Origin: Planctomycetia bacterium
GTDB taxonomy: Bacteria > Planctomycetota > UBA8108 > UBA1146
Assembly (NCBI GenBank): GCA_012269595.1
Contig: JAAXJX010000052.1
Coordinates: forward strand, 1 to 64,000
Direction: 5' to 3'
Length of the DNA: 64,000 nt
Under the pieces are notes generated by a model. It searched no databases. It was not told the origin of the DNA and saw only the letters and a list, made by a program, of their open reading frames with translations. Shown in pieces: positions 4,505 to 63,963 of this stretch (positions are counted from its first letter, which is position 1; each line of letters opens with the position of its first letter). The position numbers and the translations under genes were made by a program.

Positions 4505-4565
4505 GAAAGACCACCTTCACGGCGACCGTCAGAGCCGGCAGGGGAAGCTGTCGGGGATTCCACGA

Positions 4566-6431: not shown

Positions 6432-6464
6432 GGCGAACCTCCGAACGATTTCGGGTGCGGGCTT

Positions 6465-6489: not shown

Positions 6490-6542
6490 GCAAAGTCAGC
6501 GAAGAGATTTGTAAGGGGTGAAAAGGCGAGACAGGGCCTGGA

Positions 6543-6755
6543 TCAGGCTTCTTCCTTCTCTTTGTCCTTTTCCTTCTTCTTCTTGGCACGCTTCTTCACT
6601 TTGAGAACGCGGGTCTTCGGCAGACCGATGGGACTATGCTCCTCCTCATTGAATCGACCTTCCGATTCCATCTGGAGGATGCGCTCGTAACGGGTCAAAA
6701 CGTTTCGGGTTCCCCCGATACCGCTGCCGGTTTTCAAGGACTTGTGAATCGACAT
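6543..6755 (-). CDS. Small basic protein of the Chlamydiae/Verrucomicrobia type (TIGR04137-like)
   Basis: A 70-residue protein beginning MSIHKSLKTGSGIGG and continuing with RNVLTRYERILQMESEGRF, GLPKTRVLKVK and a Lys-rich tail (KKRAKKKKEKDKEKEEA). From memory this matches the 'small basic protein' family TIGR04137 of Chlamydiae, Verrucomicrobia and Planctomycetes: MSIHKSL start, RNVLTR.ERI core, GLPK.R..K. Its function is not established; association with ribosomes or rRNA has been suggested for the family. The start is the ATG at 6755, chosen because the MSIHKSL motif begins there, with a purine-rich weak ribosome site (GAGAGAAGA) upstream. The gene lies ahead of set A on the same strand, separated by a perfect hairpin. 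The location is probably incidental to transport. Confidence 0.85.
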   Translation of the reverse strand: MSIHKSLKTGSGIGGTRNVLTRYERILQMESEGRFNEEEHSPIGLPKTRVLKVKKRAKKKKEKDKEKEEA

Positions 6756-7019
6756 GTCTGTCTTCTCTCTCTGCAACTCTGGAATTGGACGGCTGGTGTT
6801 CGCGACAGGTTCCGGAGAACACTCCCGGATGAGGGAAAGAAGCGCTGAGACGCTCCCCCTTACCAATACACCAGCCCGGAAAATCCCCTGATTCCACCAG
6901 AGGGATCTCCTGATCAATGAAACAGGATACCGATCGCCCTCTCCTGCGGCAAGCAAAGACGGGGCTTGGTCTTGCCGAATCGGGAACGGGAGATCATGAT
7001 TTCACCGGGAAGGGGTCTG
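6756..7019. promoter_or_regulatory. Divergent intergenic region between the small basic protein gene and set B
   Basis: A 264-nt gap between genes transcribed away from each other, so it should hold promoters for both; I see no convincing -35/-10 pair. The clearest structure is a 7-bp inverted repeat, CGGCAAG (6947-6953) and CTTGCCG (6971-6977), with a 17-nt loop, ending 42 nt before the set B binding protein start. It could be a leader hairpin or an operator half-site pair. Confidence 0.35.
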
Positions 7020-10530: not shown

Positions 10531-10533
10531 GGG

Positions 10534-12367: not shown

Positions 12368-12381
12368 GAGATCTCCCGTAC

Positions 12382-14091: not shown

Positions 14092-14376
14092 GACAACCTC
14101 ATTATCGACGAGAAACGGAACTCCCGGTCAATCTTGATCTGACAAGCACGGGTACGTCCGGAAGCAAGGTATACGAAAACCGGGAAAACTGCGACCTACC
14201 CGCGAATATTGGACCTTTTGGGCCTTTCACCTCACTCCCGAATCCCGTGGCGTTCCGGAGTGGATGGGTTATCCTCCCCGCTTGAGACCTGTTTTCCGCA
14301 GAGCAGACCCATTCGTCGCTCTGCCCATTGGAATCCCGGTCTGCAGGGTCAACAGAACGAAAAACAGGTACCCCAC
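14092..14376. promoter_or_regulatory. Divergent intergenic region between sets C and D, with a hairpin
   Basis: A 285-nt gap between two divergently transcribed binding-protein operons, so it should carry promoters and regulatory sites for both. I cannot assign a confident -35/-10 pair. A 7-bp perfect inverted repeat, GCAGAGC (14298-14304) and GCTCTGC (14318-14324), lies about 50 nt upstream of the set D start and could form a leader hairpin. An in-frame extension of the set D binding protein runs through this region, but the signal peptide shows that translation starts after it. Confidence 0.4.
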
Positions 14377-16335
14377 ATGATTTCGATTTCAAGAAACCCT
14401 CTTCGCTGGAGCGCTCTGTCCTTTCTGGCGATCACCCTGTTGATCGCCGGCTGTACAGCCGAAAGACCGGCAGCTCCTGTGACGCCTCCCGGCGAAGATG
14501 CTTCCAATCAACAGTCTGCAACGCAGGATACCCCCGCCAAACCCCGTGTTGTGCGAATCAGCAAAATGGATCGCCCGGAGGAACCGAAGCCGGACCCCTC
14601 CCAGCCCGTTGGTGTTCCCTCTCCCGCTTTCATTGGAGAAGTCAGCCCTGATGCCGTCGTCGTCGACCGCACCGGAACCTACGGTGGCCGATTTGTTTAT
14701 GCCATTCTGGGAGAGGTGGAGACCTTCAATCCGGTGGAACCGAAGGGGGCGACCGACCAGGAGATCCGTGCCCTCGTCTTCTCACCGCTGGTGACCTACA
14801 ACAACGGCAAATGGCAAACGGAACCTGCGCTTGCCAAGAATTGGGAAGTTTCCGATGACCAGTTGACCTGGACCTTCTTCATCCGCGATGGCATTCGCTG
14901 GGCCGATGGAGAAGAAATGAACGTGGAAGATGCCCTCTTCTCATTCCAGGCGGTATTTCACCCGCAGATCGCCACCAGTATCAAAGACGGATTCAAGCAC
15001 CCTGAAACAGGTGAGCTTCCGGAGGTAATGGCGGACAAGGAACGGAATGCCCTCGTCTTCAAACTGAAGCGGATCGATTCCCAATTCCTGACCCACGTCG
15101 GCAATGTCAGCATCATTCCGGAGCACAAGTGGCGCGATCACCTTCAGGAGAAGGATCCCACTCTTCTTCAACAGATGACTTCCAATGCAGACCCTGCCGA
15201 TCTTGTCGGCTGCGGCCCCTTTGTCCTCAAACAGTACGTCCCCGCTGAAAAGATCGTCTACCAGCGGAATCCCCACTATTGGAAAGTGGATTCTCGCCAG
15301 CAGCGTCTTCCCTATCTGGACGAGGTCGTCATCGTTCTCGTCAAGGATTCGAACCTGATGTGGCAAAAGTTTGAAGCGGGCGAATTGGACATCTTCGAAG
15401 ATGTTCCCGCCGACCATTTCCGCGAAGCGGTGGCAATGGAGAAGGAAGCGAAGGCGAGCCTGATCCGTCTCGGAGTCAGCCTCAACAGCAACTGGGTCTG
15501 CTTCAATCTTCACCCGGGGAAAAACCCGGATACCGGTGAACCTTTCGTCGATGAAGCCAAAGCCTACTGGTTCAACAATCTGGAGTTCCGCAAGGCGGTC
15601 AATCACGCCATCGACCGGGACGGTATCAAGCGTACCGCATTCCAGGGCAGAGCCACGGCGATCTGGTCCAGCATTACCCCGGGTAACAAATCCTGGTACC
15701 ACGCCGGAGTACCGAAGTACCCCTTCGACCTCGATAAAGCCAAAAAGATCCTCGATGACATGGGCTGGACCGACCGGGACGGGGATGGTGTTCGCGAGGA
15801 TGACCTGGGACGCAAGATCAGTTTCTCCCTGAACACCAACGTGGAGAACAACCTGCGCCAGCAGGTAGGCAACCTGATCAGCAAGGACTTGGTCAACCTC
15901 GGCCTGGAGATCAACTTCAAACCCATCGTCTTCAATGATCTGGTGACCAGCCTCCGCGACAGCCACAAATGGGACATGATCCTGCTCGGCTGGGGATCCG
16001 GTGTTCCGCCTGATCCGGCCAATGGCAAGAACATCACCCTCTCCAGCGGCCGCCTCCACGCCTGGTACCCGCAGCAACCGGAACCAGCCACTGAATGGGA
16101 AGCACGCATCGACAACCTCATGGCCATGATGGACGAGGAACTCGATGACAAGGTTCGCAAAAAGTACTACGACGAGGTTCAGGAACTGATCGGACAGAAC
16201 ATTCCGATCCTCTACCTGATCGCCGCCAACTCCTACGCTGCTTCCCAGGAGGGACGTATCGGCAATCTGTGGCCCAGCCTTCTGCGACCACAAATGACAT
16301 GGAATCTCGAATCCCTGTGGAAAGCACAACCCTAG
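14377..16335 (+). CDS. Peptide ABC transporter substrate-binding lipoprotein, family 5 (set D)
   Basis: Family 5 substrate-binding protein of about 652 aa. From ATG 14377 the N-terminus reads MISISRNPLRWSALSFLAIT and then LLIAGC, a textbook lipoprotein signal and lipobox, followed by a Pro/Gln-rich spacer of about 70 residues. The mature domain includes GTYGGRFVYAILGEVETFNP, LTWTFFIRDGIRWADGEEMN, KFEAGELDIFEDVPADHF and an EF-hand-like DRDGDGVREDD segment. Such Asp/Gly loops are common in this subfamily and may simply be part of the domain-III fold. It is longer than DppA and resembles the set A binding protein in having long loops. It heads set D, whose permeases also have periplasmic insertions. 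Substrate is not deducible beyond 'probably peptides'. Confidence 0.93.
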   Translation: MISISRNPLRWSALSFLAITLLIAGCTAERPAAPVTPPGEDASNQQSATQDTPAKPRVVRISKMDRPEEPKPDPSQPVGVPSPAFIGEVSPDAVVVDRTGTYGGRFVYAILGEVETFNPVEPKGATDQEIRALVFSPLVTYNNGKWQTEPALAKNWEVSDDQLTWTFFIRDGIRWADGEEMNVEDALFSFQAVFHPQIATSIKDGFKHPETGELPEVMADKERNALVFKLKRIDSQFLTHVGNVSIIPEHKWRDHLQEKDPTLLQQMTSNADPADLVGCGPFVLKQYVPAEKIVYQRNPHYWKVDSRQQRLPYLDEVVIVLVKDSNLMWQKFEAGELDIFEDVPADHFREAVAMEKEAKASLIRLGVSLNSNWVCFNLHPGKNPDTGEPFVDEAKAYWFNNLEFRKAVNHAIDRDGIKRTAFQGRATAIWSSITPGNKSWYHAGVPKYPFDLDKAKKILDDMGWTDRDGDGVREDDLGRKISFSLNTNVENNLRQQVGNLISKDLVNLGLEINFKPIVFNDLVTSLRDSHKWDMILLGWGSGVPPDPANGKNITLSSGRLHAWYPQQPEPATEWEARIDNLMAMMDEELDDKVRKKYYDEVQELIGQNIPILYLIAANSYAASQEGRIGNLWPSLLRPQMTWNLESLWKAQP

Positions 16336-16350
16336 GGTGAGGAAAAAGAC

Positions 16351-17526
16351 TTGCTGACTTTCAGCCTGCGCCGACTGCTGTCGATTCCGCCTCTGGTTCT
16401 GGTGGTTTCATTTCTGACCTTCCTGCTTCTGAAGCAGGCACCGGGTGATTTCTACAGCCAGATGGAAGCGGACCCCACCCGCTCCACCACTGAGGTCCTG
16501 CGCCAAAAAGAAAACGCGGGACTGTTGGTCAGGCTGGATCGAAACCAGTTGGTGGCCATCGGTGAGTTTTCGGATGACGGCCATCGCTGGTCCTTCGCAG
16601 ACGAAGGTGGAGAGCGGCCGGTGATCCGCAAGGATGGAACTCCGGTCCGCGCCAAAGAAGCCAGCCGCAGCCTGCTCAAATTCCAGATCGACGGAATCCA
16701 GTACCAGTGCGACGATGAGGCTGTGGTTTACCGCAAGGTGGGCGCCATCGAGGGTTTCTTCTCTTGGCTTTTCAATGCCCTGACTCTGGACTTTGGAACC
16801 TCTTACAAGTTCAACCGTCCCGTCTTCGGCATCATCGCCGAGAGACTGCTGAACACGTTGACCCTGTCGCTGGCCGCCCTGGTCATCGCCTATGGGCTGG
16901 GTGTTCCTCTCGGGATCTTCGCCGCCGTGAAGCCCAATTCCCGACTGGACCACAGCGCCGGAATCATCGCCTTCCTCGGCCTTTCGATTCCGACTGTTTT
17001 CTTTGCGTTGTTGGCAATGCTGTTCGCCTCGTATACCGGTTGGTTCCCCATCGGTGACATGCGTTCTCTGGATTACGACCAGTACGGATTCTTCGGCAAA
17101 ATAGCCAATCGGATCCATCACCTGTTCCTGCCCGCACTGGTACTGGGTACTTCAGCCATGGCGGGATACATGCGACAGGCCCGAGGAAACATGATCGAGG
17201 CGCTGGGTCAGGATTACGTGCGCACGGCACGCGCCAAGGGAGTGTCAGAACAGGGTGTCCTGTTCAAGCACGCCTTCCGCAATGCGGTCAATCCGCTGGT
17301 GACCCTGTTCGGCTACTCACTTGCCAGTCTCCTCAGTGGATCTTTGTTGGTTGAAATCGTCATGAACTGGCCTGGCCTGGGACGCCTGATCTTTGAAGCG
17401 ATCAGCGCAAAGGACGAGCCCCTGGTCCTTGCCAGTGTTTTGATCTCCACTCTGCTGCTGGTTTTTGGCAATCTGGCCGCGGACATACTCCTTGCCGTGG
17501 TGGACCCGAGGGTGAGGTTGTCCTGA
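16351..17526 (+). CDS. OppB-type peptide ABC permease with a periplasmic insertion (set D)
   Basis: Permease of 391 aa, about 80 longer than standard OppB. The first helix (LSIPPLVLVVSFLTFLLLKQ) and APGDFY motif are followed by about 100 residues of mixed charged sequence (about 40-140). The core then resumes with the GTSYKFNRPVF segment, membrane helices, the EAA loop (DYVRTARAKGVSEQG), the NWPGLGRLIFEAI segment and the ending VVDPRVRLS. The start is TTG at 16351, supported by GAGG with about 8 nt spacing and by the fact that the first helix begins right after it. The stop shares one base with the next ATG (TGATG). The insertion is smaller than in set A but lies at the same place. Confidence 0.9.
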   Translation: MLTFSLRRLLSIPPLVLVVSFLTFLLLKQAPGDFYSQMEADPTRSTTEVLRQKENAGLLVRLDRNQLVAIGEFSDDGHRWSFADEGGERPVIRKDGTPVRAKEASRSLLKFQIDGIQYQCDDEAVVYRKVGAIEGFFSWLFNALTLDFGTSYKFNRPVFGIIAERLLNTLTLSLAALVIAYGLGVPLGIFAAVKPNSRLDHSAGIIAFLGLSIPTVFFALLAMLFASYTGWFPIGDMRSLDYDQYGFFGKIANRIHHLFLPALVLGTSAMAGYMRQARGNMIEALGQDYVRTARAKGVSEQGVLFKHAFRNAVNPLVTLFGYSLASLLSGSLLVEIVMNWPGLGRLIFEAISAKDEPLVLASVLISTLLLVFGNLAADILLAVVDPRVRLS

Positions 17527-22880: not shown

Positions 22881-23312
22881 ATGAAATCAGACACATCCCA
22901 CCCCCTGTCCTTCTTCCGGTACACCTCCCTGAAGCAATGGTGCTTCCACCTTCTTATTGCTTCCACTCTCATCGTGACCTTTTCCGGTTGTCAGACACCC
23001 GGACCTCAAGTCAGCGATGGTGGAGGCCGCTGGCCCGGACTGCTCTCGGAAGATGCAGTCATGAGAACCCAGACGATCCACATGATTCAACAGGGTGGTG
23101 ATCGCTCGACAGTCCCTCTGCTCTTTCCCCTGCTCAACGATAAAGACCGCTGGGTTCGCTACAATGCCCGTGCAGCGATTCTGGTTCTCGCAGGCCCCCA
23201 CAGGGAAACCGCTCCCGTCTATCGCTACATGGCTAAATCGTCACTGCTGAAAGCCGCTCCAGAGGAGCACCGCGTCTGGTGGGAAAACCTGTTTCCGGGA
23301 TCAACCCGCTGA
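22881..23312 (+). CDS. Small lipoprotein with HEAT-like helices, unknown function
   Basis: A 143-residue protein that I do not recognise as a named family. The N-terminus has basic residues, a hydrophobic segment (FHLLIASTLIVTFSGC) and a lipobox TFSGC at about residues 34-38, so it is predicted to be exported and lipid-modified. The rest is short and helical: an IQQGGDRSTVPLLFPLLNDK stretch followed by RWVRYNARAAILVLAG, which looks like one HEAT/PBS-type repeat (helix, conserved Asp, Arg-Ala helix), and a C-terminal helix. The last 12 nt overlap the end of uvrA on the opposite strand. No functional partner is evident nearby. Confidence 0.75.
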   Translation: MKSDTSHPLSFFRYTSLKQWCFHLLIASTLIVTFSGCQTPGPQVSDGGGRWPGLLSEDAVMRTQTIHMIQQGGDRSTVPLLFPLLNDKDRWVRYNARAAILVLAGPHRETAPVYRYMAKSSLLKAAPEEHRVWWENLFPGSTR

Positions 23313-26300
23313 CTTTTTCCGACCAGACTTTCGCACACTTCTGGACGTTTCCGTCAAAACCTTTTTCAAGGCAGCACCGGTAAAACTCTTTTTACAGGCC
23401 GCAACCTCTTCCGGTGTCCCTGCAACCACGATGCCACCCCCACTGTCGCCGCCTTCTGGACCCATATCGATCACATGATCCGCACTGGCCACCAGATCCA
23501 TGTCGTGCTCGATGACGATCACGGTATCTCCCCGGTCAACCAGCCGGTGCAACATTTGGACCAGAAGGCGAACATCTCCGAAGTGAAGACCCGTCGTGGG
23601 TTCATCCAGAATGTAGATTTTCCTGCCTCGGGATCTGCGGCCCAACTCAGCTGCAAGCTTGACCCTTTGTGCTTCTCCCCCTGAGAGGGTGGTTGCAGAT
23701 TGGCCCAGAGAAAGATAACCGAGCCCGACCTCTTCCAACGCAGTCAGCATCGTCGCCACTGCTGGAACGTCCTGAAAGACCTGGCGTGCCATGCGCACAT
23801 CCATCTCCAGAACGTCGGCGATACTGTGACCTTTCCAGCGTGCCTCCAGGGTCTCGGGTTCATACCGTTTTCCATGACAATCATCACAGCGAACCCAGAC
23901 GTCACTGAGGAAGTGCATTTCGATCAGCACTCCCCCCTTCCCCTCACAACTTTCACAACGGCCACCTGCAACATTGAAAGAGAAACGTCCCGGCCCCCAA
24001 CCGCGCAGGCGAGCGAGAGGTGTTTTTGCGTACAAACCTCGCAACGGAGCCATCAATCCGGTGTATGTGGCAGCATTCGACGAAGGAGTCCGTCCAAGGG
24101 GTTGCTGATCGATGACACCAAGACCATCAAACTGGTCCACTCCCTCGATTCGTTCATGCTCCGCACTGGCGGGACGGGCGCCGGCAAGACGGGTAGCCAA
24201 TTCCCGGGAGAGAATGTCCATGATCAGGGAGGACTTCCCTGAACCGGAAACACCCGTGACACAGGTGAGGACGCCTGTCGGAATATGGACCGTCAAATCT
24301 TTCAGGTTGTTGGCCCTGGCGCCCACAATCGTCAAAGGATCGCTGGTGGGAGTTCGCCGTTCATTGACCTCATGCACCTGCTCTTTTCCTGACAGAAATG
24401 CTCCGGTCAACGACTTTCGATTCTTGCGAATGGCAGCGGGAGTCCCCTCAGCAACCACTTCCCCACCGCCGACACCGGCGCCGGGGCCCATGTCCACGAT
24501 GTGATCCGCGCGATCCATCGTTTTTTCGTCATGCTCGACCACGACCAGAGTGTTCCCCTGATCTTTCAGAGAGACCAGCGAATCGAGCAAACGGTCCACA
24601 TCCCTCGGGTGCAATCCGATCGTGGGTTCATCGAGAACATAAAGCACACCCACCAACTGGTTACCAATCTGTGTCGCCAGTCGAATCCTCTGGGCCTCAC
24701 CTCCGGAGAGCGATTCTGTAGCCCTATCCAGAGCCAGATAACCAAGGCCCACTCTTTCAAGAAACCCCAGCCTGCTTGCCACTTCGCGATGAATTTGCTC
24801 AGCAACTTCGCGGCGATGGCCGTCCAGCTTCAGCGATTCGAAAAACTTCAATCCTTCGGAAACCGTCAGCGCACACACCTCTGAGATGTTGAGACCGCCG
24901 ATCTTGACCGCCAACAACTCGGGTTTGAGTCGTCCGCCGTGACAATCCGGACATGGCCTGATCGCCAAATGATCCTCGATCGCACGACGCCAACGGGGAG
25001 AACCCGCACGTTGATGCCAGATCGAAACCCTTCGTATCAGACCTTCCCAGGTCGATCCGGTCACTCTCCGGAGTCGGCCTGAACCTCGTCTGGTACGGAA
25101 GGTCACTGGATACGACTGGTCGCCGGTTCCATGCAAAATGATATTCCAACCCTCTTCACCCAATTCACTGACCGGGTCGTCGGGATCAAATCCGTGGGCG
25201 ATCAATGCGGCATCGATGACTTTGCGGACCCGGGAACTCCGGCGTCCTATCCAGGATCCCAGGCGGTGATCCATCGCTCCATTGAAGAGGGGCTGGTCCG
25301 GGTCTGTGATCAACAGGCGGGGGTCTACCTGCTTCAGGATTCCAAGACCCGAACAATGACCGCATGCTCCCGAATGATGATTGAAAGAGAAGAGTCGCGG
25401 TGTGAGCTCCTGACCCAGCATCATGTGGCCTTGAGGACAGGAAAGATGCCGCGTGAATCGCAGAACCTCCTCTCCTTCTGCATTGGCGACCACGATGCGA
25501 TCCCCCCCGCGCCGGTAACACTCCTCCACACTTTCTGAAACCCGGGCCCTGCCGGACCTTTCAGGCTTGACCCGATCGATGACCACGTCCAACTGCTCCA
25601 GAGAATCCGCGTCGAAGGTCTCATCCAGCTCATCGATTCTCAGGACCCTGCCCCCGTCCAGTCTCAGGCGGGCGAATCCTTCCCGTTGAAGCGATTCCAG
25701 ATCCGGAAAGGGTTTCTTGAGCGGAGCAAGGAGAAGTGTCGGCTCATTTCCGCGAAGCTCCATGATGGCCTTGCTGGCTGCAGCCGGAGTCGCCTCGGAC
25801 AAGGGGGCCTCGCAATGGGTACAGTGAGCGCTCCCGGCCCTCGCAAAGAAGATGCGCAGATAGTCGTAGATTTCAGTGGTGGTCGCGACCGTTGAGCGGG
25901 GATTGCTTCCCCGATTTCTCTGGTCGATGGCCACTGCGGGTGCAATCCCCTCCACGCGATCCACATTGGCCCGGTCCATTCTGCCCAGGAATCTCCGGGC
26001 ATAGGTCGACAGGCTCTCCAGATACCTCCTTTGACCTTCCGAAAACAGAATGTCAAAGGCCAGCGTACTCTTGCCGGAACCACTGGGACCGGTGATCACG
26101 GTCATCTTGCCCGCAGGTATCTCAAGACGAACATCTTTCAGGTTGTTCTGACGGGCCCCCTCAATCACGAAACGGTCGCTGGGCTCACCCTTTCCGGAAC
26201 CCCGCTTCTTTCCCTTGCGTTGGGAAGACTTGCGGCTTCCATGTAACTCGGGAAGCAAAGCCTCTCCAGTCAGGCCTCCGGAATCGGCGATCTCTTCCGG

Positions 26301-29015
26301 AGTTCCACAACAGACGATCTCGCCGCCACCCCCTCCACCGAGGGGCCCCAGATCGATAACGTGATCGGCCTGCTTGATGACATCCATGCAATGCTCGATG
26401 ACGATGACCGAGTTGCCCCGATCCACCAGCGCATGCAAACAGGCAAGAAGGTTTTCCACATCTGCAAAGTGAAGACCCGTCGTCGGTTCATCCAGGATGT
26501 ACAGGGTATTGCCCGTACTGCGCTTGCGAAGTTCCGTGGCCAACTTGACTCTCTGGGCTTCACCACCGGAAAGAGTCGTGCTCGGCTGCCCGAGGGAAAC
26601 ATATCCAAGCCCCACTTTCTGCAATGTTTCCAAAGTATTGAAAACCTGCGGGACATCTTCAAAGAGCTTGGTCGCATCGTCGATGGACAAGGCCAGGACT
26701 TCAGCGATGTCATGCCCCCGCCAACGCACGGTTCTTGTTTCTTCGTTAAAACGGGTTCCATGACATTCATCACAGACCACCTGAATGTCCGCCATGAACT
26801 GCATGCCTATGGTGGTCACTCCTGCGCCTTCACACGCTTCACAACGACCCCCCTTGACGTTGAAGGAGAATCGCCCCTTCTTCCAACCGCGCGCACGAGC
26901 TTCCGGCGTTTTCGAAAACAGTTCACGAATATCGTCGAAGACTTTGGTGTAGGTTCCCGGATTTGATCGGGGAGTCCTGCCGATAGGGCTTTGATCAATG
27001 CGGATCAGCTTGTCGATGTTCTCAAGGCCATCGACCGAGTCATGATCTCCGGGAGCCTCTGTCAAAAGTTCCAGATGCTCTGAGACTGCGGGCTGAAGTA
27101 TCCCCTGAATCAGAGTACTCTTGCCGGAACCACTGACTCCGGTAACCACGACCAGAGATTGGAGCGGGATCTCAACATCGATGTTTTTCAGGTTGTGCAT
27201 TCGAGCCCCCCGGATGAAGAGACTCTCATCCGAAAGGCGACGCTCCTCGGGAACCGGGATTTCCGCTTTGCCACTCAGATAATGACCGGTGACGGAATCG
27301 GGGCTTTTTTTCAGTTGGGTAACCGAACCTTCTCCGGTCAGAACACCACCATGAATTCCCGCGCCAGGGCCAATATCCACCACATGATCCGCAGACTCGA
27401 TGGTCTCACGATCATGCTCCACGACCAGCAGGGAATTACCCTTGTCACGCAAACCCCTGAGCATCTCCAGCATGGTGCTGTTGTCCGAGGCATGCAGTCC
27501 GATGGAAGGTTCATCGAGAACATAGAGCACCCCTCGCAAGCCGCTTCCCAATTGGCTGGCCAGGCGAATCCGCTGCGCCTCTCCCCCTGAAAGTGTGTCT
27601 GCGGAACGATCGATGGCCAGATATCCCAATCCGACTTTCTTCAGAAACTCCAATCGGGCTCGGATCTCCGGAAAGATGGACTGACCAATCAGCAATTCCC
27701 GGGCATCCAAATCGAGCGATTCGAAAAAGCCCTGCGCTTCCTCGACAGTCATCGAAGAAACCTCATCGATTCCCGCATCATGGAATCTCACTGACCGTGC
27801 TGCAGGTTGAAGTCGGGAACCATCACAGCCCTTGCAAGGGGCGAAAGGCATCCAGCGCTCCAGTTCACGACCGCCATGCAAATCGTAGGAAACCTCTGCC
27901 AGGTGAAAAAGCCCGGGCCAGTCCGCCTTGGACCCCACTGCTGCAGATCCCTCCAGCACAAATCTGCGAGCCCTGTCCGTCAGTTTTTTCCAGGGTTTGC
28001 TGGGGTCCACTTTTCCAGCCTTGAGAGCTTCATCCAAAACTTTCCATGGGATACCCAAACCGCGAATCGCCTTGCCCTGTTTCCTTGTTTGAAGAGCTCC
28101 ATCCTCGATGGACAAATCCGCATCGCGGACCACACTGGTGAAAGAGGGAGAGCGTCTCCGCCCCAAACCATCGCAACGCTCACACGCACCAAGAGGGCTG
28201 TTGAATGAAAAGAGGCGCGGCTCCAATTCAGGGATCGTGACGGAACACTCATGGCATCCGAATCGACTGGAGAAGAGGTGGCCCTCGTCTCCGATCACCA
28301 GATCAACCAATCCGTCTCCCAGAGCGAGAGCCTTTTCCACCGCCTCGGCGAATCGTCCCCTTTTGCCATCGACCAACTTCATTCGATCGAGAACGATTTC
28401 AATGGTGTGGCGCTCGTATCTCGCAAGGACTATCTCATCCGACAGATGGAGAATCTCACCATCGACACGAACTCTCTGGAAACCCTGCTCCCGCAGATCG
28501 TCCAGTTCCTTCCGGTACTCCCCCTTGCGCTCCAACACGATCGGGGCGCAAACCGTGACCTGTTCACCGCCATGGTGATGCCATGCATGAAGAACGATTT
28601 GCTCGCGACTGCGACCTTCGATCAATCCACCACAGCTCGGACAATGGGGAGTCCCCAGCCGGGCATACAGCAAGCGCATGAGATCGAGAATTTCCGTGAT
28701 GGTCCCCACCGTTGACCGGGGATTTCGGGAAATCGTCTTTTGGTCGATGGCAATGGTCGGGCTGAGGCCCTCGACCATTTCAACCTGAGGGCGATCCATA
28801 CGACCCAGATACTGGCGGGCATAAGGGCTCAGGCTCTCAACAAAACGTCTTTGTCCCTCCCGGCAAATAATCTGATGCGCCAGGGTGGATTTCCCTGAAC
28901 CACTGACACCGGTAACAACAACCAGTCTTTCCCGGGGAATCTCCACGTCGAGATTCTTCAGGTTGTTTTCTCGAGCCCCTCTGACGACAAGGGGCCTACC
29001 CGTGTTCTTTTTCAT
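23301..29015 (-). CDS. uvrA: Excinuclease ABC subunit A, double-length tandem UvrA
   Basis: DNA damage recognition ATPase of nucleotide excision repair; it loads UvrB at lesions. At 1904 aa it is twice the normal length (about 940) and consists of two consecutive UvrA units, residues 1 to about 945 and about 946 to 1904. A basic linker ([16 protein letters not shown]) joins them. Each unit has two ABC modules: four P-loops are visible (GVSGSGKST at 36-44, GVSGSGKST near 640, GPSGSGKST near 970, GVSGSGKSS near 1590), with LSGGEAQR signatures and LDEP(S/T)xGLH Walker B motifs. Zinc-type Cys pairs (CxxC) occur in three modules; the third shows CPQGH in place of CxxC. Double-length UvrA is known in Chlamydia. 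The ATG overlaps the upstream phosphatase stop by 4 nt. Confidence 0.96.
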
Positions 29016-31963: not shown

Positions 31964-32548
31964 CTAAACCACCTAAACCCTTTAAATGAAGAGACTTAAG
32001 TCTGAAAACCAACTCATTTGGGCAGCTTGAAAGCTCGCACCTTGTTCGTGAAATCCCTGCGACACGCCCGAAGAGCCTGCCAGGGGCCCTGTGCCAGCAG
32101 TCTCGTCCTGCTGGATTTGCAATGAGACTGAAATGCCCTCATTTGCCTAGCAAGTGCTCCCTGATTGCGGAAAAGGCTAGGTAAACCCTCCCGGACTGTC
32201 AAGAAGGACACCGGTCAGAAACCTCACCGAGGGCATACTTTACTCCGATGAAAGGCAATATAGAATGAGGGTTGAAAGAAATGGAGCCGGAAATCAGGAT
32301 TCCGCGTATTGGCAGAACGAATTCCATTCCTCCGTGCCGTTACAAATGGAGGAATAGACTCGTTTTGACAATGGGTCATCGATAGAAATCGATAATGCCG
32401 GAGATGATTCCTGTCGGGAATCTGCATCATTGTCCGACGGACCCGGTTTTCACGGATTCAGTTTGTATAGGCGATGTCAGCCACTTACTTCATGGTCAAT
32501 GGAGTGGCTTGCGAGTCTTCAACAGGTTTCGAAAGGGTGCCAACAGGA
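31964..32548. promoter_or_regulatory. Structured non-coding region ahead of the dockerin-type exported protein gene
   Basis: About 585 nt without a gene I can support. It holds, in order: a 12-bp palindrome AGACTTAAGTCT (31992-32003); a hairpin CCAGCAG/CTGCTGG with 7-nt loop (32094-32114); a candidate plus-strand promoter at 32239-32266; an 8-bp inverted repeat ATTCCTCC/GGAGGAAT (32326-32333, 32348-32355); two direct copies of ATCGATA three nt apart (32378-32394); and a hairpin GATTCC/GGAATC (32406-32422). A TTGACA at 32365-32370 lacks a well-spaced -10. No known riboswitch or ncRNA is recognised. A minus-strand open frame at 32014-32211 is not convincing. Confidence 0.5.
32239..32266 (+). 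promoter_or_regulatory. Candidate promoter for the dockerin-type protein gene
   Basis: TTTACT (32239-32244), 16-nt spacer, TAGAAT (32261-32266) on the plus strand. TAGAAT differs from TATAAT at one position and recurs at 35757 and 49637. The leader to the likely ATG at 32549 would be about 275 nt and would include the inverted and direct repeats listed for the intergenic region. Confidence 0.45.
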
Positions 32549-33829
32549 ATGAACACCAGCAGAAATTCAACTCTGCTCATTCCAAACAATAATTTTGCTG
32601 ATCGACGCCTCCTGAGGTGTTTTTCAGCAATTGTTACCTTTTTGATTTTGATCGGCGGATTCCTTCCTGCAATCGCCGAAGCACAAATGCAGTCCTCCAC
32701 TTCAGGAAATCCCCAAAGCATTCGACTGGGAGAAGCGATCGTCGTTCCGGGAACCGCAGAAGCCCTGGTCCCTGTCTACCTGACTTCCGAGGTCGAAATC
32801 GCCACCTGGCAAATGGGTCTGGAATATGACGAATTGCTTTTGAATCTGGTCGATGTGGAATTCACGGGTACCGAGAGCGAACTTCTCGATCCGATTCTCA
32901 TTCCCACGCTGAATCAGAACTCCAACCTGAGCGGGTTTCAGGTCGTCTATCCGGGTCCGGAATTTTTCTCCACCGGAGAAGGTCTCCTGGCGGCATTCCT
33001 TCGATTCCAGTGGATCGGAACCATGCCGATTCCCAGCCCTTCCGGGCTTTCCACTCCCATCACTCTGATCGATCTGGAAACCCTTCCGATCTCGATGACC
33101 TCCCCATCGGGCCTGGTCACGATTCCGGAGACCCAGTCCGCAGACGTCGTGATTCATGATTACCCGCTGATCCTCGTCGAAGAGTCGATGGCCCCTCTGA
33201 CGGCAGAAGACTTTCTGGTTCCGGTCAGGGCATGGACCAGTGACTCCGCCTCCACCTTCATGATGGGTCTGGAGTATGACGAGCTGCTGATGACCCAGTT
33301 CATCGTTACTGGCAGTGACGCTGACCGCCTGAGCAGTGGCAACTGGGACCTCACCATCGAAATGACTCCTGCAGGAGTGATTTGCACCCTTGAGACATCA
33401 ACGCCCCTGCCGCCGCTCAATGGCGAGACTCTGGGTTTCCTGCGAATCGATCGCCCCGGCAATCAACCGGGTCAGCCCGGTTGGGGTCCCTGGACCATCG
33501 GACTCAACCCCGGTAACTGTGAGATCGATGGCACCCCGGTGGCCTATCTTGAGCCGGGCAGCATGACCTGGATTTCATGGTTCATGCGCGGTGATGCCAA
33601 TCTTGACAGCAATCTGGATATTGCAGACGCTGAAACGATTCTGGGAGCCTGTTACCTTGGAATCCCGGTGGACTGCGAAGACGCAGCGGATACCAACGAC
33701 GATGGCGCTCTCGACGTCTCAGACGTCGTCTCTGTGCTGCAATTCCTCTTCTCAGGTTCCCCCTCTCCGCCGGCTCCCTATCCGGATGCAGGATCAGACC
33801 CCACTCCGGACCTGCTCGACTGCGAATAG
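32549..33829 (+). CDS. Exported protein with two cohesin-like repeats and a C-terminal dockerin-type (EF-hand pair) tail
   Basis: A secreted protein of about 426 aa. The start is uncertain: the frame opens at 32474, but ATG 32549 places the signal segment (RRLLRCFSAIVTFLILIGGF, then PAIAEAQ) closer to the N-terminus; the ribosome site is weak for every choice. Two beta-sandwich-like repeats follow, each with MGLEYDELL preceded by a VPVY or VPVR strand, which resemble cohesin domains. The C-terminal 80 residues form an EF-hand pair: RGDANLDSNLDIADAE and DTNDDGALDVSDVVSVL, with an acidic Asp/Cys tail (DPTPDLLDC) shared with the pentaheme protein at 63.9 kb. Such tails are common in planctomycete extracellular proteins. 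Function unknown; possibly cell-surface or matrix assembly. Confidence 0.75.
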   Translation: MNTSRNSTLLIPNNNFADRRLLRCFSAIVTFLILIGGFLPAIAEAQMQSSTSGNPQSIRLGEAIVVPGTAEALVPVYLTSEVEIATWQMGLEYDELLLNLVDVEFTGTESELLDPILIPTLNQNSNLSGFQVVYPGPEFFSTGEGLLAAFLRFQWIGTMPIPSPSGLSTPITLIDLETLPISMTSPSGLVTIPETQSADVVIHDYPLILVEESMAPLTAEDFLVPVRAWTSDSASTFMMGLEYDELLMTQFIVTGSDADRLSSGNWDLTIEMTPAGVICTLETSTPLPPLNGETLGFLRIDRPGNQPGQPGWGPWTIGLNPGNCEIDGTPVAYLEPGSMTWISWFMRGDANLDSNLDIADAETILGACYLGIPVDCEDAADTNDDGALDVSDVVSVLQFLFSGSPSPPAPYPDAGSDPTPDLLDCE

Positions 33830-57655: not shown

Positions 57656-60600
57656 TTATTTCGACCACCCATCCGCCAACTTAATCGACCGGATCCCCTG
57701 ACCGTCATGGACTCCAAGCCACTCGGACATTGTCGATCTCGAGGTCCCTTCGGGAGCTTGCTGGCACCACCGGTCCAATTCCCTTTGAGCAGCCGCCTCG
57801 AGAGCCCTTGCAGAAACTGAATCTCCCATTTGGCAACGCAACCTCGACCAATAGCTGAGGACCATTGCCCGCCCTTCTCGGGAAGGCAATCGAACCGCTT
57901 TTTTCCAGCACTGGCGAATCAATGCTTCTGGATCAGGGTGAGGAGAACTGAGGGTTCTTGCCAACTGTATCCGCAATGACAGAGGCTGAATGCGCAGACG
58001 CAGTGCCTCGAGAGCAATCCGCTCCAGTCCGTTTTCCCAATCTTCACACTCTTCTGTTCCCCGGCTGAACTGACGAAGCAAATCCTCGAAAGCGGTTTTC
58101 GCCCGGAGAGATCCTCCCGGCTCTGGATCAAGCCCCGGCTCGCTTCCACGAGTCCCTCGCAACTTGCGTTCTTCCATACGTGCCAATGAAGTCCGCCCCA
58201 GTATCTTGAGGATCGAAACCCGTTCCCTGCGCAAAGAGATCAGATCGCTGTCGACGCCACGAAGTCTCAGTTGTGTCAACGCATGATCGACAACAAAGAG
58301 ACTGCCAGAAAGGTCGCCCTGTGATCGCAGGCACCGACTTTTGAGGATCGAGTGCCGTGCGTGAACGTCGATTCTTTCCGGCTCATGCGGGGCCCACTCC
58401 GGGCTGGCAGCATCGAGGATTCGCAAGGCTGTGTTCGACCGCCCTGCAACCCACTCCGACGCTGCCACCAGAAGATTGCCTTCCCATGCAACGATTCCAG
58501 CGGGCCCCTCCAGCGACATCGCCTCCTCCAGTAATCGGGAAGCAGATCGGATAAATCCTGCTCCGGCTTCTTCCCGTGCCTTGACCAGCAAGGCCCTGGG
58601 TAATTGTGCCGGGCATTCCTTGCGAGCCCTGTCGATGACTCCATGAACTTCTTCATTCACGAACCCGGTTTCACCCATGCGCTGAAGAGCCTCGACCGAA
58701 TCCACTTCCGCTGCGGTAGCGGCTTCATGGCGATGCTCTCGCCGAGCAAGGTAGGAATGGAGTCGACTCCACAACCTCAGCGAAGGCAGATCATTCTGGG
58801 CGCGGGCCAACAACCCCATCGCCTCCGCTATGATTCTTCCATCCCTGTTTTCTCTCAAGGCGATGCGTGCATGATCGCGGGCGCGCAACCGGCTGCCCTG
58901 AAGAAGATAACGACGACACTGCTCAAGAATCAGGGAAGTTCGAAGGTTGCCTTTGCAACGAGGAATCCATTCAGCAAGAGGATCCCTCTTCGGCAACTTG
59001 CCCAAACCCTGCCGAACGATGGCTCTCTGAATCCGCGAGTACTCCAGAGCCACAAGCGTGGCCTCCTTGACCACTCGGGGACAGGAAAAGTCGATGGCCT
59101 GTTTTGAAACCTCTTCAATGCAGGAAAGCGCTTTGCGGGTCTCCCCGTCTCTTCTTTGCACTGAAGCTCGCCACCGGGTCAATCTCAGAGCTTCACTCGA
59201 TCCAGGACTTGCGCCAGCCATCGCTTGACGCCAGGCGTGATCACGCAAGGCTCCGTGGCCACATCGATCTTCCATCTGACCCAATAATTCAAGCCAGGGT
59301 CGCTGCCTCTTCTCCGGAAGCATGTGGATCAATGAAGACAGGACAGGAATCCAGCGTGCTGCCTCATCGAAGGGAACCGGCGTTTCTGCGTCCTCCACCA
59401 AAGGCTTCAACGACTTCGTTGCTCCATCGACGTCTCCAGAACTCAATTGGTGATGGGCCTTCTCCAGCAAGCTCCGTTGTTCAAATGCCAGAACTCTTTT
59501 GTGGATCGACTGTCGGTCAGCAGAAGAAAGGGAAGCAAGGACCGCTTCCCGTTGAAAGACTCTGCGAAACTCGATACTGCGACCGACACTTAACCAGCTT
59601 TTGGAAGACAGCTCAGAAACCCTTGCGGGGAAATCTCCTCCGGCAAGTTGAACCAACCCGGACAACTCAGACACCGACGCAGGCCTGCCCAAAACTGCAA
59701 GTGACTCCAGGATTCGACGACAAGATGCAGAAAGGGCCGAAAGCTGCTCCTGTGACCGAACCTTCCAACGCTCCTCAGGAGGCTGAATTGACGGCTGCCA
59801 ATTCCAGCGGAGCCCATCATGGGTCAATTCTCCTGCTTGAATACGCCCCTTGAGAATACGTCTCCACATACCCGGTTCATTCTGCCCCCAACTTTGCAGG
59901 CGGCTTCTGACACGGGTGGGGACCGAACATCCGGGCAATGCCATTTCAAGAAAAGGTTCGAGTAACACTTCCGAGTTCTCACAAGTGGAGACCTCAGTGC
60001 TGCCCAACGCGGCGAGGGCTTCTCCGATGAACCCTGACGGAGCTTCACGACTGCTGACCCACCAATGAAGCCTCGCCTCTTTCCACTGGTGAACCTTGAG
60101 CAATCTCTGCCATTGTTGGTTTCCTGAATCCGGATTCTCAACCAGAACGATGATCCTGGAAGCCGTGGGGTCAATCCCCTGAGACAAACCAGAAAACGGA
60201 TCATCACTGTGTGAATCCAGGGAAAGGACAGACCACCCCTTTGACTGCAGAAGCGCCTTGGACTGATCAACGATCCAGCGCCGATCAGACTCATGAGAGT
60301 GCAAGTGAAGCAAAACTTCTTCCGGGGAAGACCGCTTCAGCCAATGTTCAATCTTTACAGTCAAATCAGCCGTGACAGAATTGCCGGTCCCTGCGTATTC
60401 TACTTGAGCAAGAAGCGAGTCCTTCGATTCGGCATCAGATCCATCTCCCTGTCGAAGAATCGTCGACAATTCGAAGAGGATTTCGCCTGCATGGGCGTGA
60501 CGATCATCGGGCTTCTTCGCCAACATTTTCATGATCACTTTTTCGACATCCGGAGGAAGTCCGGGTCGAAGACTCGCCAGTGTTGGTACCTCGTCATGCA

Positions 60601-61285
60601 GGTGTGCGCTACTCAATAGAGGTTTGGCCACAGAGTCAAAAGGGAATTCCCCCGTCCACCAGTGATAGAGCAGGATCCCGGCTGAATAAACATCGCTGCG
60701 AAGCTGAGGTGGTTGCCCGAGCCATTGCTCAGGGGCCATCGATTGTGGCGTTCCCAGAATCTTTTCTTCCGCTGGCAAATGCTCCTGACGACTCAAACCA
60801 AAATCGAGCAGAACAGGATCCAGAGCACCCTCAGCAACGTCTGCCCGAAGGCGAATATTGTCCGGTTTGATATCTCCATGAACCCAGCGATTGCGATGCA
60901 TGAAGGATAGAGCTCGCAAAAATCCCGTGGACAGCTGCCACCACTGCTGAAGGGTGATTTGTCCTGCGATTTCTGTAGAGACGGGTCCACGCAATACTTC
61001 ACTGGTGAACCAGGTTTCTCCGGTCTTGGGACTGACTCCAAAATCGAGAACCCGCAGAATGGAAGGGTGGGAAAGCTTCTTCAGATGCAAAAACTCTCGA
61101 CGCAGACGTTGCCCCAAAGGGGATCTCGCTTGTTCAGCCTCAATCTTTTTTAACGAGACGAGTTCCCCGGAATTTCGGTCCCTGACCAGCCAGACCTCTC
61201 CCATACCGCCACGGCCAAGCGGGGATATCGCTTCAAAACGATCGGTGTACCCGGTCAGGCCGGGTGCTCCCTGCTGAATTGCCAC
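57656..61285 (-). CDS. Ser/Thr protein kinase with a long C-terminal PknK-like region
   Basis: 1209 aa. The N-terminal kinase domain (about 15-285) is complete: glycine loop LGRGGMGEVW (23-32), Lys46 or 47 (SLKKI), catalytic WVHGDIKPDNI with Asp138, LDFGLSRQ (160-167) and MAPEQW (183-188). The usual HRD is HGD, so it is a non-RD kinase. The next 350 residues look like a degenerate signalling NTPase domain followed by a winged-helix-like segment (LAVLGRPASVSELSGLVQLA), as in PknK/STAND kinases, but no Walker A is seen. The remaining 550 residues are helical TPR-type repeats rich in Arg and Ala. No membrane helix. GTG 61285 has AGGAG 4 nt upstream. The target is unknown. Confidence 0.88.
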   Translation of the reverse strand: MAIQQGAPGLTGYTDRFEAISPLGRGGMGEVWLVRDRNSGELVSLKKIEAEQARSPLGQRLRREFLHLKKLSHPSILRVLDFGVSPKTGETWFTSEVLRGPVSTEIAGQITLQQWWQLSTGFLRALSFMHRNRWVHGDIKPDNIRLRADVAEGALDPVLLDFGLSRQEHLPAEEKILGTPQSMAPEQWLGQPPQLRSDVYSAGILLYHWWTGEFPFDSVAKPLLSSAHLHDEVPTLASLRPGLPPDVEKVIMKMLAKKPDDRHAHAGEILFELSTILRQGDGSDAESKDSLLAQVEYAGTGNSVTADLTVKIEHWLKRSSPEEVLLHLHSHESDRRWIVDQSKALLQSKGWSVLSLDSHSDDPFSGLSQGIDPTASRIIVLVENPDSGNQQWQRLLKVHQWKEARLHWWVSSREAPSGFIGEALAALGSTEVSTCENSEVLLEPFLEMALPGCSVPTRVRSRLQSWGQNEPGMWRRILKGRIQAGELTHDGLRWNWQPSIQPPEERWKVRSQEQLSALSASCRRILESLAVLGRPASVSELSGLVQLAGGDFPARVSELSSKSWLSVGRSIEFRRVFQREAVLASLSSADRQSIHKRVLAFEQRSLLEKAHHQLSSGDVDGATKSLKPLVEDAETPVPFDEAARWIPVLSSLIHMLPEKRQRPWLELLGQMEDRCGHGALRDHAWRQAMAGASPGSSEALRLTRWRASVQRRDGETRKALSCIEEVSKQAIDFSCPRVVKEATLVALEYSRIQRAIVRQGLGKLPKRDPLAEWIPRCKGNLRTSLILEQCRRYLLQGSRLRARDHARIALRENRDGRIIAEAMGLLARAQNDLPSLRLWSRLHSYLARREHRHEAATAAEVDSVEALQRMGETGFVNEEVHGVIDRARKECPAQLPRALLVKAREEAGAGFIRSASRLLEEAMSLEGPAGIVAWEGNLLVAASEWVAGRSNTALRILDAASPEWAPHEPERIDVHARHSILKSRCLRSQGDLSGSLFVVDHALTQLRLRGVDSDLISLRRERVSILKILGRTSLARMEERKLRGTRGSEPGLDPEPGGSLRAKTAFEDLLRQFSRGTEECEDWENGLERIALEALRLRIQPLSLRIQLARTLSSPHPDPEALIRQCWKKAVRLPSREGRAMVLSYWSRLRCQMGDSVSARALEAAAQRELDRWCQQAPEGTSRSTMSEWLGVHDGQGIRSIKLADGWSK

Positions 61286-61497
61286 GGAACTCCTATCCGG
61301 GACAAAACCACTCCTGTCCCGAGGAATTGTACGATTTTCCGCAGAATTTGGCTTTTCTGCTCATTTCTCACAGTCAGGTAACCGGCTATATTTACCGACA
61401 GGAATGTTCAGCCCGTGACTTGGACTGGTGACGGGTACCATAGATTCAATCAAGACAGAGCCGGTCTCCCTGTGACCGGTATGATGCTGGAGTCGCT
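61286..61497. promoter_or_regulatory. Divergent promoter region between the kinase and the pentaheme protein
   Basis: 212 nt. On the plus strand TTCTCA (61364-61369), 17-nt spacer and TATATT (61387-61392) is the best -35/-10 pair seen in the window. A hairpin CCGGTC/GACCGG (61461-61466, 61474-61479) lies close before the pentaheme gene start. A promoter for the kinase on the minus strand is not identified. Confidence 0.5.
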
Positions 61498-63963
61498 GTG
61501 ATCCATGCCCCCATCAATACACAAGTATCTGTTTTGAATATACTTAGGAAGCCGCTGCCTTCAAAAGCCAGCCTTCTGAATCAAATCGGGATCCCCCTCT
61601 TCTGGCTGTTGATTTTGACGAGTGGTCCTCTCGAAGCCCAGGTTTCCGGAACCGTCATCGACAGCAATACCGGCCTTCCACTCGTCGGTGCCAGAGTCAC
61701 CCTGCAAGCCACCGACATCCGCACTGAAACCGCAGTGGACGGCTCATTCTCTTTGCCTTCCGTCAACGGATTGGCTCTCAAGGTCGTCGGTGCCAAAAAG
61801 GGCTACTTCAATCAATCCGTGACCGTTGATACCCCGCAGACCGGCACGGTGATCTCTCTCGATCCAGTCATTGCAGCCGATGACTCAAGCTACAATTTTG
61901 TGACCCCTTTCCAGTGCGCCGTCTGCCACCCTACTCAATATGAACAGTGGGCCGATTCACGCATGTCTCATACCGGGCTCAACACCTGGGTCTACGATCT
62001 CTTCGATGGAACGGGTACCGCCGGGGGCAACAATGGATATGTCTATTTGACGGATTCGGTGCATGCCGGTGTTGCCCCGGATGGAAGTTGCGCTTCCTGC
62101 CACCAGCCTGAGGGCTGGATTGCCAACCCCTTCTCAGCACTGGCTCCTCTTTCGGGCCCCCTGACCGAGGCTCAGGAACGGGGTGTCTCTTGCGAAACCT
62201 GCCACAAAATTGCAGACGTCGATGAAAGTAACCTGAACGCCACCGGCTTCATCCCGGGAGCAGTCACTGTACAACGTCCCGACTCGAGCGGACTGATCGA
62301 TCAGGTGATGTACGGTCTTCTGGGTGACGTGGATTTCGTCGTTCAAAACCAGATGCGTGGAAGCTTTCAGCCCCAGTTGGCTGCGGAGGCGTGCGCGGTT
62401 TGTCACCAGTACAGCAATGATCCGGACCACGACAACAACTTCAACGAACCCTCAAGCATTCCGGCACAGGAAACCTACACCGAGTGGAAAAATTCACCCT
62501 ACGGAGACCCCAACGATCCGCTCTTTCAAACCTGCGTCGATTGTCACATGTCTCCCTTCTCGACCGATCCTGTCGATGCTTGCGCCGCCCTCTTCCCACC
62601 ATTGCTGCGTGACCCTTCTGCTGTTCACGGCCACGACATTCAGGGAACCACGCCTCTCTTCCTCGAAAATGCCGTCACTTTGACGTTGGGAGCGATTCAG
62701 GATGGAGATGAATTGGCCGTCGATGCCGAGATCCTCAATGACCAGACGGGGCATGCCGTTCCTTCAGGAGTCACGCTGAGAAACATGATCCTCAAAATCG
62801 AGGCAACCGATGCTCAAGGAACCGTTCTTACACAGAACTCGGGAGACACGATTCACCCCCTCGGAGGCACCGGCGATCCTGCACAGGGCTTTTTCGCCGG
62901 GTTACCAGGAAAACTCTTCGCCAAAATCAATCGCAATGCCGAAGGCACGGAAGGCGTCATCTTCACCGATGCTGAAGCCATCGTCAGTGACAACAGGATC
63001 GCTCCGCTTGCCACGGACCTCACGCAAGTCCGATTCGATCTGACCGGAACAGTCAGCCCCATTCAGGTGGAAGCTCGCCTCATATACAGAAGGGCTCCAA
63101 GAGACCTGGTTGCGATCAAAGGTTGGCAACTGGACGGCATCGGTCAACCTCTCGCCGATATCGAGGGGCCCGATTTTGGCACCCTGATGGAAAACTCGAC
63201 CACCAGTATCGATGTGATTCCGCCCACGATTTCACCCTTCACCTACCGTATTCCGGTACTGAACAGCGATGGTCAGAACGGATTCTCTGCGACCCCGGAA
63301 ATCGTCCAGACCAGCGGAAGCCCCATTCCTTGTGGCGGCTTTTCCATGGCAGTGGGTCACTCGTCCGCGTCACTGCAGGCAACCTCTATCCAGATCAGCG
63401 ACGAGTTGGCTGCGATAGACAACAACACCGGTCCGGATTTCTTCGAGACCGCCATTTTCGGCGACGGAATCACCATCGCCTGCCTCTTTGATTTTGCCTT
63501 GCAGCAAAACCTGACCTTTGAAAATGCCACGCCCATCGCGACCATCGAGTATTCAGGTTCTGCACCACAACAAAGCCCCTACCTCGATTTCGTCGAAACC
63601 CTGGGGCAGCCGGTGGTACAGAATGTTGTGGCCACTGTCGCCGGAGATTCCGTGGCCCCCGAAACGGAAGGGGCGACAGAGATCCTCGTCAGTGCAGAAT
63701 TCTATTTGCGTGGTGACGCCAATCTCGATGGAGCACGGGACATCGGCGATCCCATCTCGCTCTTGGGGGTGCTCTTCGCCAACGCGACTCCCATCGATTG
63801 CGACGACGCACTCGATGCCAATGACGATGGGCTCATCGATATCGCGGATGCGATCCAGATCCTGTCATTCCTTTTTGGCAACCAGACATTGCCGGAACCG
63901 AATGACTGCGGACCTGATCCCACCATCGATTCCCTCGATTGCCCCGGCTACACCTGCCCCTGA
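61498..63963 (+). CDS. Exported pentaheme cytochrome-like protein with carboxypeptidase-regulatory-like domain and dockerin-type tail
   Basis: 821 aa from GTG 61498 (GGAG 6 nt upstream). A long N-region precedes the signal helix (GIPLFWLLILTSGPLEA, about 31-47). A carboxypeptidase-regulatory-like beta domain follows (about 49-125: VSGTVIDSNTGLPLVGARVT). Five CxxCH heme sites lie at 140, 198, 232, 299 and 346 (CAVCH, CASCH, CETCH, CAVCH, CVDCH), with extra His residues that could be distal ligands (SRMSHTG, HDNN). Next come a beta-rich region with GHAVPSGVTLRNM and a cohesin-like segment, then an EF-hand pair from residue 738 (RGDANLDGARDIGD; DANDDGLIDIADAI) and the tail CGPDPTIDSLDC. The heme part resembles c554/NrfB-like multiheme proteins in motif only. 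Electron partner unknown. Confidence 0.9.
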   Translation: MIHAPINTQVSVLNILRKPLPSKASLLNQIGIPLFWLLILTSGPLEAQVSGTVIDSNTGLPLVGARVTLQATDIRTETAVDGSFSLPSVNGLALKVVGAKKGYFNQSVTVDTPQTGTVISLDPVIAADDSSYNFVTPFQCAVCHPTQYEQWADSRMSHTGLNTWVYDLFDGTGTAGGNNGYVYLTDSVHAGVAPDGSCASCHQPEGWIANPFSALAPLSGPLTEAQERGVSCETCHKIADVDESNLNATGFIPGAVTVQRPDSSGLIDQVMYGLLGDVDFVVQNQMRGSFQPQLAAEACAVCHQYSNDPDHDNNFNEPSSIPAQETYTEWKNSPYGDPNDPLFQTCVDCHMSPFSTDPVDACAALFPPLLRDPSAVHGHDIQGTTPLFLENAVTLTLGAIQDGDELAVDAEILNDQTGHAVPSGVTLRNMILKIEATDAQGTVLTQNSGDTIHPLGGTGDPAQGFFAGLPGKLFAKINRNAEGTEGVIFTDAEAIVSDNRIAPLATDLTQVRFDLTGTVSPIQVEARLIYRRAPRDLVAIKGWQLDGIGQPLADIEGPDFGTLMENSTTSIDVIPPTISPFTYRIPVLNSDGQNGFSATPEIVQTSGSPIPCGGFSMAVGHSSASLQATSIQISDELAAIDNNTGPDFFETAIFGDGITIACLFDFALQQNLTFENATPIATIEYSGSAPQQSPYLDFVETLGQPVVQNVVATVAGDSVAPETEGATEILVSAEFYLRGDANLDGARDIGDPISLLGVLFANATPIDCDDALDANDDGLIDIADAIQILSFLFGNQTLPEPNDCGPDPTIDSLDCPGYTCP

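Follow-up and report, generated by a model that had tools for sequence, protein, structure and literature searches.

The study of the Thermochromatium tepidum cytochrome c552 structure (5ze8) reportedly describes a five-heme domain and an Ig-like domain, and to our knowledge the function of pentaheme cytochromes of the c552/ExtKL type is not settled. A pentaheme family with structural homology to T. tepidum c552 groups ExtKL of Geobacter with the PHCs of cable bacteria (PMC11976967); the same paper, citing Baquero et al. 2023, also relates this family to the archaeal nanowire AvECN.

Cohesin-dockerin systems form the second body of relevant knowledge. The planctosome hypothesis proposes a cohesin/dockerin peptidase complex in the freshwater Nemodlikiaceae, a group of planctomycetes, and is the nearest published concept to the system described here (PMC6461901). 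As far as the available text of that paper goes, both are non-cellulosomal systems of Planctomycetota with cohesin-plus-dockerin adaptors and dockerin-tailed peptidases, whereas the set analyzed here also contains heme proteins (pentaheme, CCP/MauG and DHOR types) and a PQQ-type glucose/sorbosone dehydrogenase (GSDH, PF07995), and that text mentions no cytochromes. ANME resemble the present organism in combining dockerin and cohesin proteins, including scaffoldin-like cohesin repeats, with multiheme cytochromes in one organism; in the available sections of PMC9012536, however, the dockerin bearers named are solute-binding and S-layer proteins and no dockerin-cytochrome fusion is described. The clostridial cellulosome shares the cohesin fold and the dockerin loop pattern, whereas the cargo seen here consists of redox proteins and peptidases.

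A search of the open-access literature, subscription journals lying outside its scope, found no paper treating dockerins, planctomycetes and c-type cytochromes together and no published description of a surface pentaheme cytochrome with a cohesin-dockerin tail. The author of an earlier note on the DNA analyzed here did not know of a description of such a composite. This holds for the combination, whereas the core made of carboxypeptidase-regulatory-like, pentaheme and Ig-like domains belongs to a widespread family. What is new lies in the joining of a known core to known tail modules and in the redox proteins that the dockerin set includes.

Domain order of the pentaheme protein

The window, by which we mean the whole 64,000-nucleotide stretch that was analyzed, carries a gene at 61498-63963 on the + strand (stop codon included) that starts with GTG a few bases downstream of a GGAG and encodes 821 amino acids. 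The composite reading frame described in the earlier note is confirmed. Its domains are, in order, a signal peptide, a carboxypeptidase-regulatory-like domain, five CxxCH motifs, an Ig-like domain, a cohesin-like module and a dockerin-type double EF-hand. Judged from its sequence, the product would be a secreted five-heme electron-transfer protein ending in cohesin and dockerin. Every domain, the tail included, is under purifying selection (dN/dS 0.015-0.10 against three same-genus orthologues), except the hydrophobic, signal-peptide-like N-terminus (residues 1-45, ending in GIPLFWLLILTSGPLEA before a Q; 61498-61632), which evolves faster (dN/dS 0.33-0.74). In the intergenic stretch upstream, a scan returned a single + strand promoter match of 9/12 positions, TTCTCA-16-TATATT at 61365-61392.

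The beta regulatory-like domain that follows the signal region (residues 46-125; 61633-61872, +) had been proposed from the sequence alone and is borne out by two kinds of comparison. Residues 48-117 match CarboxypepD_reg and CarbopepD_reg_2 (PF13715/PF13620) at 30-31 bits, slightly below the curated cut-offs of about 32, and Foldseek aligns the domain with the transthyretin-like domain of 5aq0. The pentaheme domain comes next (residues 126-380; 61873-62637, +) and matches Cytochrome_C7 (PF14522, residues 137-237) and Cytochrome_C554 (PF13435, residues 139-157), both over their cut-offs, as well as 5ze8 by profile and by fold. The five CxxCH motifs (residues 140, 198, 232, 299 and 346) read CAVCH (61915-61929), CASCH (62089-62103), CETCH (62191-62205), CAVCH (62392-62406) and CVDCH (62533-62547), all on the + strand; in 20,000 shuffles of the protein the motif appeared 0.006 times on average and never more than once. 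An Ig-like beta domain, confidently modeled, closes the core (residues 381-575; 62638-63222, +) and aligns with the C-terminal part of 5ze8.

Beyond the core, about residues 578-730 (63229-63687, +) form a cohesin-like module, modeled as a jelly-roll with a pLDDT of 93 and mostly above 90. The 41 best PDB matches found for it by Foldseek are all cohesins (best E=2.1e-7), and its profile matches the ScaC cohesin 5lxv_A (E=0.0037). The dockerin-type tail (residues 736-821; 63703-63960, +) keeps two intact 12-residue loops of the pattern DxNxDGxxxxxD (residues 740-751 and 773-784), each followed by a helix in the model, and three conserved cysteines (768, 815 and 820); it belongs to a genome-wide family of tails, and its profile matches the solved dockerins 2y3n and 1daq (best E=4.4e-5). 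The cohesin-dockerin region of the cytochrome itself matches nothing in Pfam (PF00404, PF00963) or NCBIfam, the tail because it is too diverged; PF00404 is matched by 15/33 of the aligned relatives of the tail and the cohesin family PF00963 by 2/33. The labels cohesin-like and dockerin-type, which the earlier note had given to this region, are right, on family and structure evidence only; from the missing matches the tail could have been taken for something other than a dockerin, and the family alignment and the structure decided against this. With a cohesin as well as a dockerin, the cytochrome could act as receptor or as ligand, or as both, in one kind of attachment.

The pentaheme core, its hemes and its changing tails

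In a search of related whole genomes, close relatives sharing 45-96% identity with the first 600 residues turned up across the whole family-level group and in a few planctomycetes further removed; beyond these the matches are weaker. A scan of GTDB genomes returned 225 relatives, the best of which were kept as 79 loci, and 74 cores were aligned. The kept loci come from metagenome-assembled genomes (MAGs) labeled Planctomycetota, Myxococcales/Deltaproteobacteria, Gemmatimonadota, Acidobacteria, Gammaproteobacteria, Chloroflexi and Latescibacterota. The unit common to them consists of the carboxypeptidase-regulatory-like, five-heme and Ig-like domains (residues 46-568). This core is of a known kind and represents a large, widespread and poorly characterized family.

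An AlphaFold2 model of the core (m785931caaca7), built from a 20-sequence alignment, has a mean pLDDT of 74; confidence is high in the beta domains but low in places within the heme region, which is no surprise for a model without hemes. In the PDB, 5ze8 lies closest to it by a wide margin, by fold (E=6.5e-18, 455 columns, TM 0.70 on the target); it also leads the profile search (E=1.2e-18), in which the selenoprotein MccSep and MccA come next. Like T. tepidum c552, the protein has five conserved CxxCH motifs in one domain followed by an Ig-like domain of the same fold, the fold being known from a model without hemes. Two invariant histidines have counterparts there as well: H379 (62632-62634, +), aligned with the DHSMGG motif of 5ze8, is a candidate distal heme ligand, and H419 (62752-62754, +), in a GHxxPTG-type motif (HAMPTG in 5ze8), is a candidate distal ligand or domain-interface residue. 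In contrast, the T. tepidum protein, at about 20% identity, lacks the carboxypeptidase-regulatory-like domain, the cohesin, the dockerin and any sorting tail. ExtKL and MccSep (Geobacter and cable bacteria; 9wt8) share the plan of a heme domain and an Ig-like domain (profile E=2.7e-8 to 9wt8), and the NCBIfam ExtKL profile NF040886 aligns over residues 139-448; the protein of the window carries surface-attachment modules instead, and with 29.4 bits against a cut-off of 250 it is not an ExtKL equivalog. The decaheme outer-membrane cytochromes OmcA/MtrC were also rejected, the present protein having five hemes and scoring 18.8 bits against 209 with TIGR03507.

Non-conservation of the heme motifs would have told against a cytochrome. 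The ten heme cysteines are invariant in the 74 aligned cores, and motifs 2 to 5 are invariant as a whole, histidine included; at motif 1 the histidine is present in 69 cores and replaced by lysine in five Chloroflexi members (L120, L121, L123, L125 and L127), which have CxxCK in place of CxxCH. At residue 156 (61963-61965), a candidate distal-ligand position where c554-type motifs carry histidine (W..S.H), methionine is found in 54/56 close members and histidine in 12/18 distant ones. The alignment is consistent with a possible switch of heme ligand from histidine to methionine, and such a switch would give one heme a higher potential.

We favor, with moderate confidence, a secreted pentaheme cytochrome resembling T. 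tepidum c552 and ExtKL, held by cohesin-dockerin contacts at the cell surface or in a matrix, where it would accept or relay electrons from secreted oxidoreductases. The same hemes could alternatively serve catalysis, the core being an enzyme with one catalytic heme (a nitrogen-oxide, sulfur-oxyanion or peroxide reductase, as in NrfA, MccA and multiheme peroxidases) that the tail only fixes at the surface. The number of hemes is that of NrfA, MccA (4rkm) is among the profile matches, a NorB-type nitric oxide reductase adjoins some core loci, and the Chloroflexi members have, in CxxCK, the lysine motif that marks the catalytic heme of NrfA. However, the 821-residue protein has no match to the Pfam NrfA family (Cytochrom_C552) at E<=1, all five of its motifs are CxxCH, including heme 1 as in the rest of its clade, and the 74 cores share only two extra invariant histidines, with no catalytic signature found beyond possible heme ligands. 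NrfA itself was rejected on these grounds, and the broader enzymatic reading appears to us unlikely.

What changes from one lineage to the next is the C-terminus of the core. Myxococcota members end in MYXO-CTERM (TIGR03901, 33-37 bits against a cut-off of 20), Gemmatimonadota members in a T9SS type A signal (TIGR04183, 29-33 bits against 23) and one acidobacterial member in IPTL-CTERM (TIGR04174, 28.8 bits against 20.5). Gammaproteobacteria carry weaker or unnamed hydrophobic-basic tails and Phycisphaerae weak dockerin-like tails, while Syntrophobacterales and Chloroflexi members are without an added tail, two of the Chloroflexi having a lipobox. Mapping the tail labels on the core tree takes 15 changes, and for the plain dockerin label by itself four or more, the tree being a quick one with many weak inner branches and the labels having been assigned partly by eye. 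Since the host's own surface-sorting signal has been acquired repeatedly, there is good evidence that the core does its work at the cell surface or beyond it; the repeated swap thus tells where the family works. The earlier idea that the protein carries electrons while its tail holds it to the surface or to a matrix gains support from these sorting tails of other phyla, from the shared dockerin and from the cohesin fold, and we consider the architecture and the localization logic well supported. Other planctomycete members (L063-L066, L068, L070 and L077) end in an unnamed, beta-rich domain of about 139 residues that matches neither Pfam nor NCBIfam models and is, by its position, a candidate surface-attachment module.

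Cohesins and dockerins of the source genome

The source genome, a member of a planctomycete group that is represented by MAGs such as TMED53, contains 133 stretches that match the 821-residue protein, nearly all of them in its C-terminal 260 residues. Pfam Dockerin_1 (PF00404) has 41 matches in this genome, 30 of them over the cut-off, and none in 12/14 control genomes; a single place passes Pfam Cohesin (PF00963), at 25.1 against 24.1. In about 295 kb of the genome, a biased sample in that the stretches were chosen for holding matches, we counted 61 open reading frames with a dockerin tail and 31 with a cohesin-like module, 28 having both. The sample includes scaffoldin-like frames in which a dockerin is joined to two or three cohesins, as well as frames with cohesin only. 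As in planctosome- or cellulosome-like systems, one genome therefore combines multi-cohesin scaffoldin-like proteins with many dockerin-bearing cargo proteins, and the source organism is a cohesin-dockerin organism whose cytochrome carries both halves. One scaffoldin-like array (L143; G000:C59, roughly bases 100-17100) consists of nine genes in a row, every one of them combining a dockerin tail with two or three cohesin-like modules.

The expansion reaches well beyond this genome. All 28 class-level relatives searched (G001-G028), small genomes of 2-3 Mb among them, have between 13 and 102 Dockerin_1 places each, and on sequence matches the dockerin expansion is class-wide.

Dockerin tails are also found in this genome on peptidases of the M4 and M12B types and on nuclease-like proteins. 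Other heme proteins with such tails, of the CCP/MauG and DHOR di-heme types, are encoded at L132:9289-10854, L138:3443-8260 and L133:14068-15819. Because dockerins sit on such different proteins (peptidases, CCP/MauG, nuclease-like), the tail could be uninformative on function, and the cytochrome might be a passive surface protein in which heme is stored or serves as a structural cofactor, with no redox role. The conservation of the heme sites and the redox-protein neighbors or fusions of the core in several phyla speak against this reading, which we judge very improbable.

Candidate electron donors and proposed assembly

The core is linked to GSDH at four loci, which belong to three distant lineages. 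The two are fused in a single chain in a Verrucomicrobia MAG (L109) and in a Deltaproteobacteria MAG (L103), and in two Sedimenticola MAGs GSDH forms a tight operon with the core, lying immediately upstream of it with a gap of 14 bases (L076) or an overlap of 4 bases (L090). These independent fusions with PQQ-type dehydrogenases suggest what feeds the pentaheme core, the linkage being limited to 4 of about 74 core loci. In the source genome the GSDH and cytochrome genes are unlinked, and relatives of the dehydrogenase part were found in 13/13 near-complete genomes searched. Its closest PDB match is hedgehog-interacting protein, a non-enzyme; the source-genome protein keeps the motifs H..GG and GLRNPWR, the second of which hedgehog-interacting protein has lost (GLHDPGR). 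The clear GSDH of the source genome (G000:C9:22759-24873, equal to L163:2260-4374) has 704 amino acids, a signal-like N-terminus and the same dockerin tail; its propeller, conserved across the family-level group, carries short repeats of the DCNNNGxxDxCD type.

Other neighbors recur elsewhere. A NorB-type NO reductase and a 4Fe-4S/TPR protein lie near the core in several planctomycete and gemmatimonad loci, and a BNR propeller adjoins it in Chloroflexi. Among the core loci, a conserved operon around the core was found only in Syntrophobacterales; in Syntrophobacterales and related MAGs (L113-L117 and L119) it includes COX2-type cupredoxin, plastocyanin-like, SCO/AhpC-type and cupredoxin plus Fer4_5 proteins. 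Because the neighbors differ among lineages, the electron donor may vary or be other than GSDH; from the linkages described above we infer that GSDH is the best single donor candidate for the cytochrome.

For a c552/ExtKL-like cytochrome held at the surface, the following sequence of events can be proposed. The signal peptide would lead to export of the protein, and the hemes would be attached once it has left the cytoplasm; the source genome encodes a single protein for cytochrome c assembly as well as a heme-copper oxidase. At the surface of the source organism, its dockerin would plug into cohesins of the scaffoldin-like proteins of the same genome, and its own cohesin could receive a further dockerin-bearing protein, so that the cytochrome would be an adaptor as well as cargo. 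Electrons would presumably be accepted from secreted oxidoreductases, the best candidates being GSDH-family sugar dehydrogenases of the PQQ type, and the dockerin-tailed GSDHs of the source genome could share scaffolds with the cytochrome. The five hemes would then pass the electrons on to another redox protein or acceptor.

Cohesin and dockerin in one chain are also both halves of a head-to-tail coupling, and this invites the notion of an extracellular electron-transfer or nanowire-type cytochrome in which cores contact further copies and the cohesin-dockerin pairing is the cross-link. The link to AvECN in PMC11976967 points the same way, yet AvECN is absent from the PDB profile matches listed and from the best 50 by fold, and extracellular respiration is not needed since the source genome has a heme-copper oxidase. 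We hold this possibility to be distinctly unlikely.

Building on the scaffold-held cytochrome, we tentatively raise the more ambitious and rather doubtful idea of a 'redox planctosome', a cohesin-dockerin surface matrix of a marine planctomycete that would co-assemble a secreted sugar dehydrogenase, di-heme peroxidase-type proteins and the pentaheme adaptor, and in which the cytochrome could chain into a conducting lattice. If this were true, the scaffold would wire the extracellular oxidation of organic matter to a heme relay. A scaffold-held cytochrome would also take non-cellulosomal cohesin-dockerin assemblies beyond hydrolysis and into extracellular redox chemistry, in a group of uncultured marine bacteria.

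The Ser/Thr kinase that the earlier note had placed divergent to the cytochrome is real (57656-61285, - strand, 1209 amino acids; Pkinase E=9.5e-32), and the arrangement of the two genes is kept in 12 genomes of the family-level group. We rejected the kinase as a functional partner: it is conserved, but it lies beside AspRS in a block syntenic only in one family-level group. A second dockerin-type tail occurs in the window (C44:33575-33826), at the end of a 451-residue reading frame (32474-33829, + strand) that is otherwise without a Pfam match. Finally, 23301-29015 on the - strand encodes a double-length UvrA-type protein of 1904 amino acids with two UvrA interaction domains and a UvrA DNA-binding domain.
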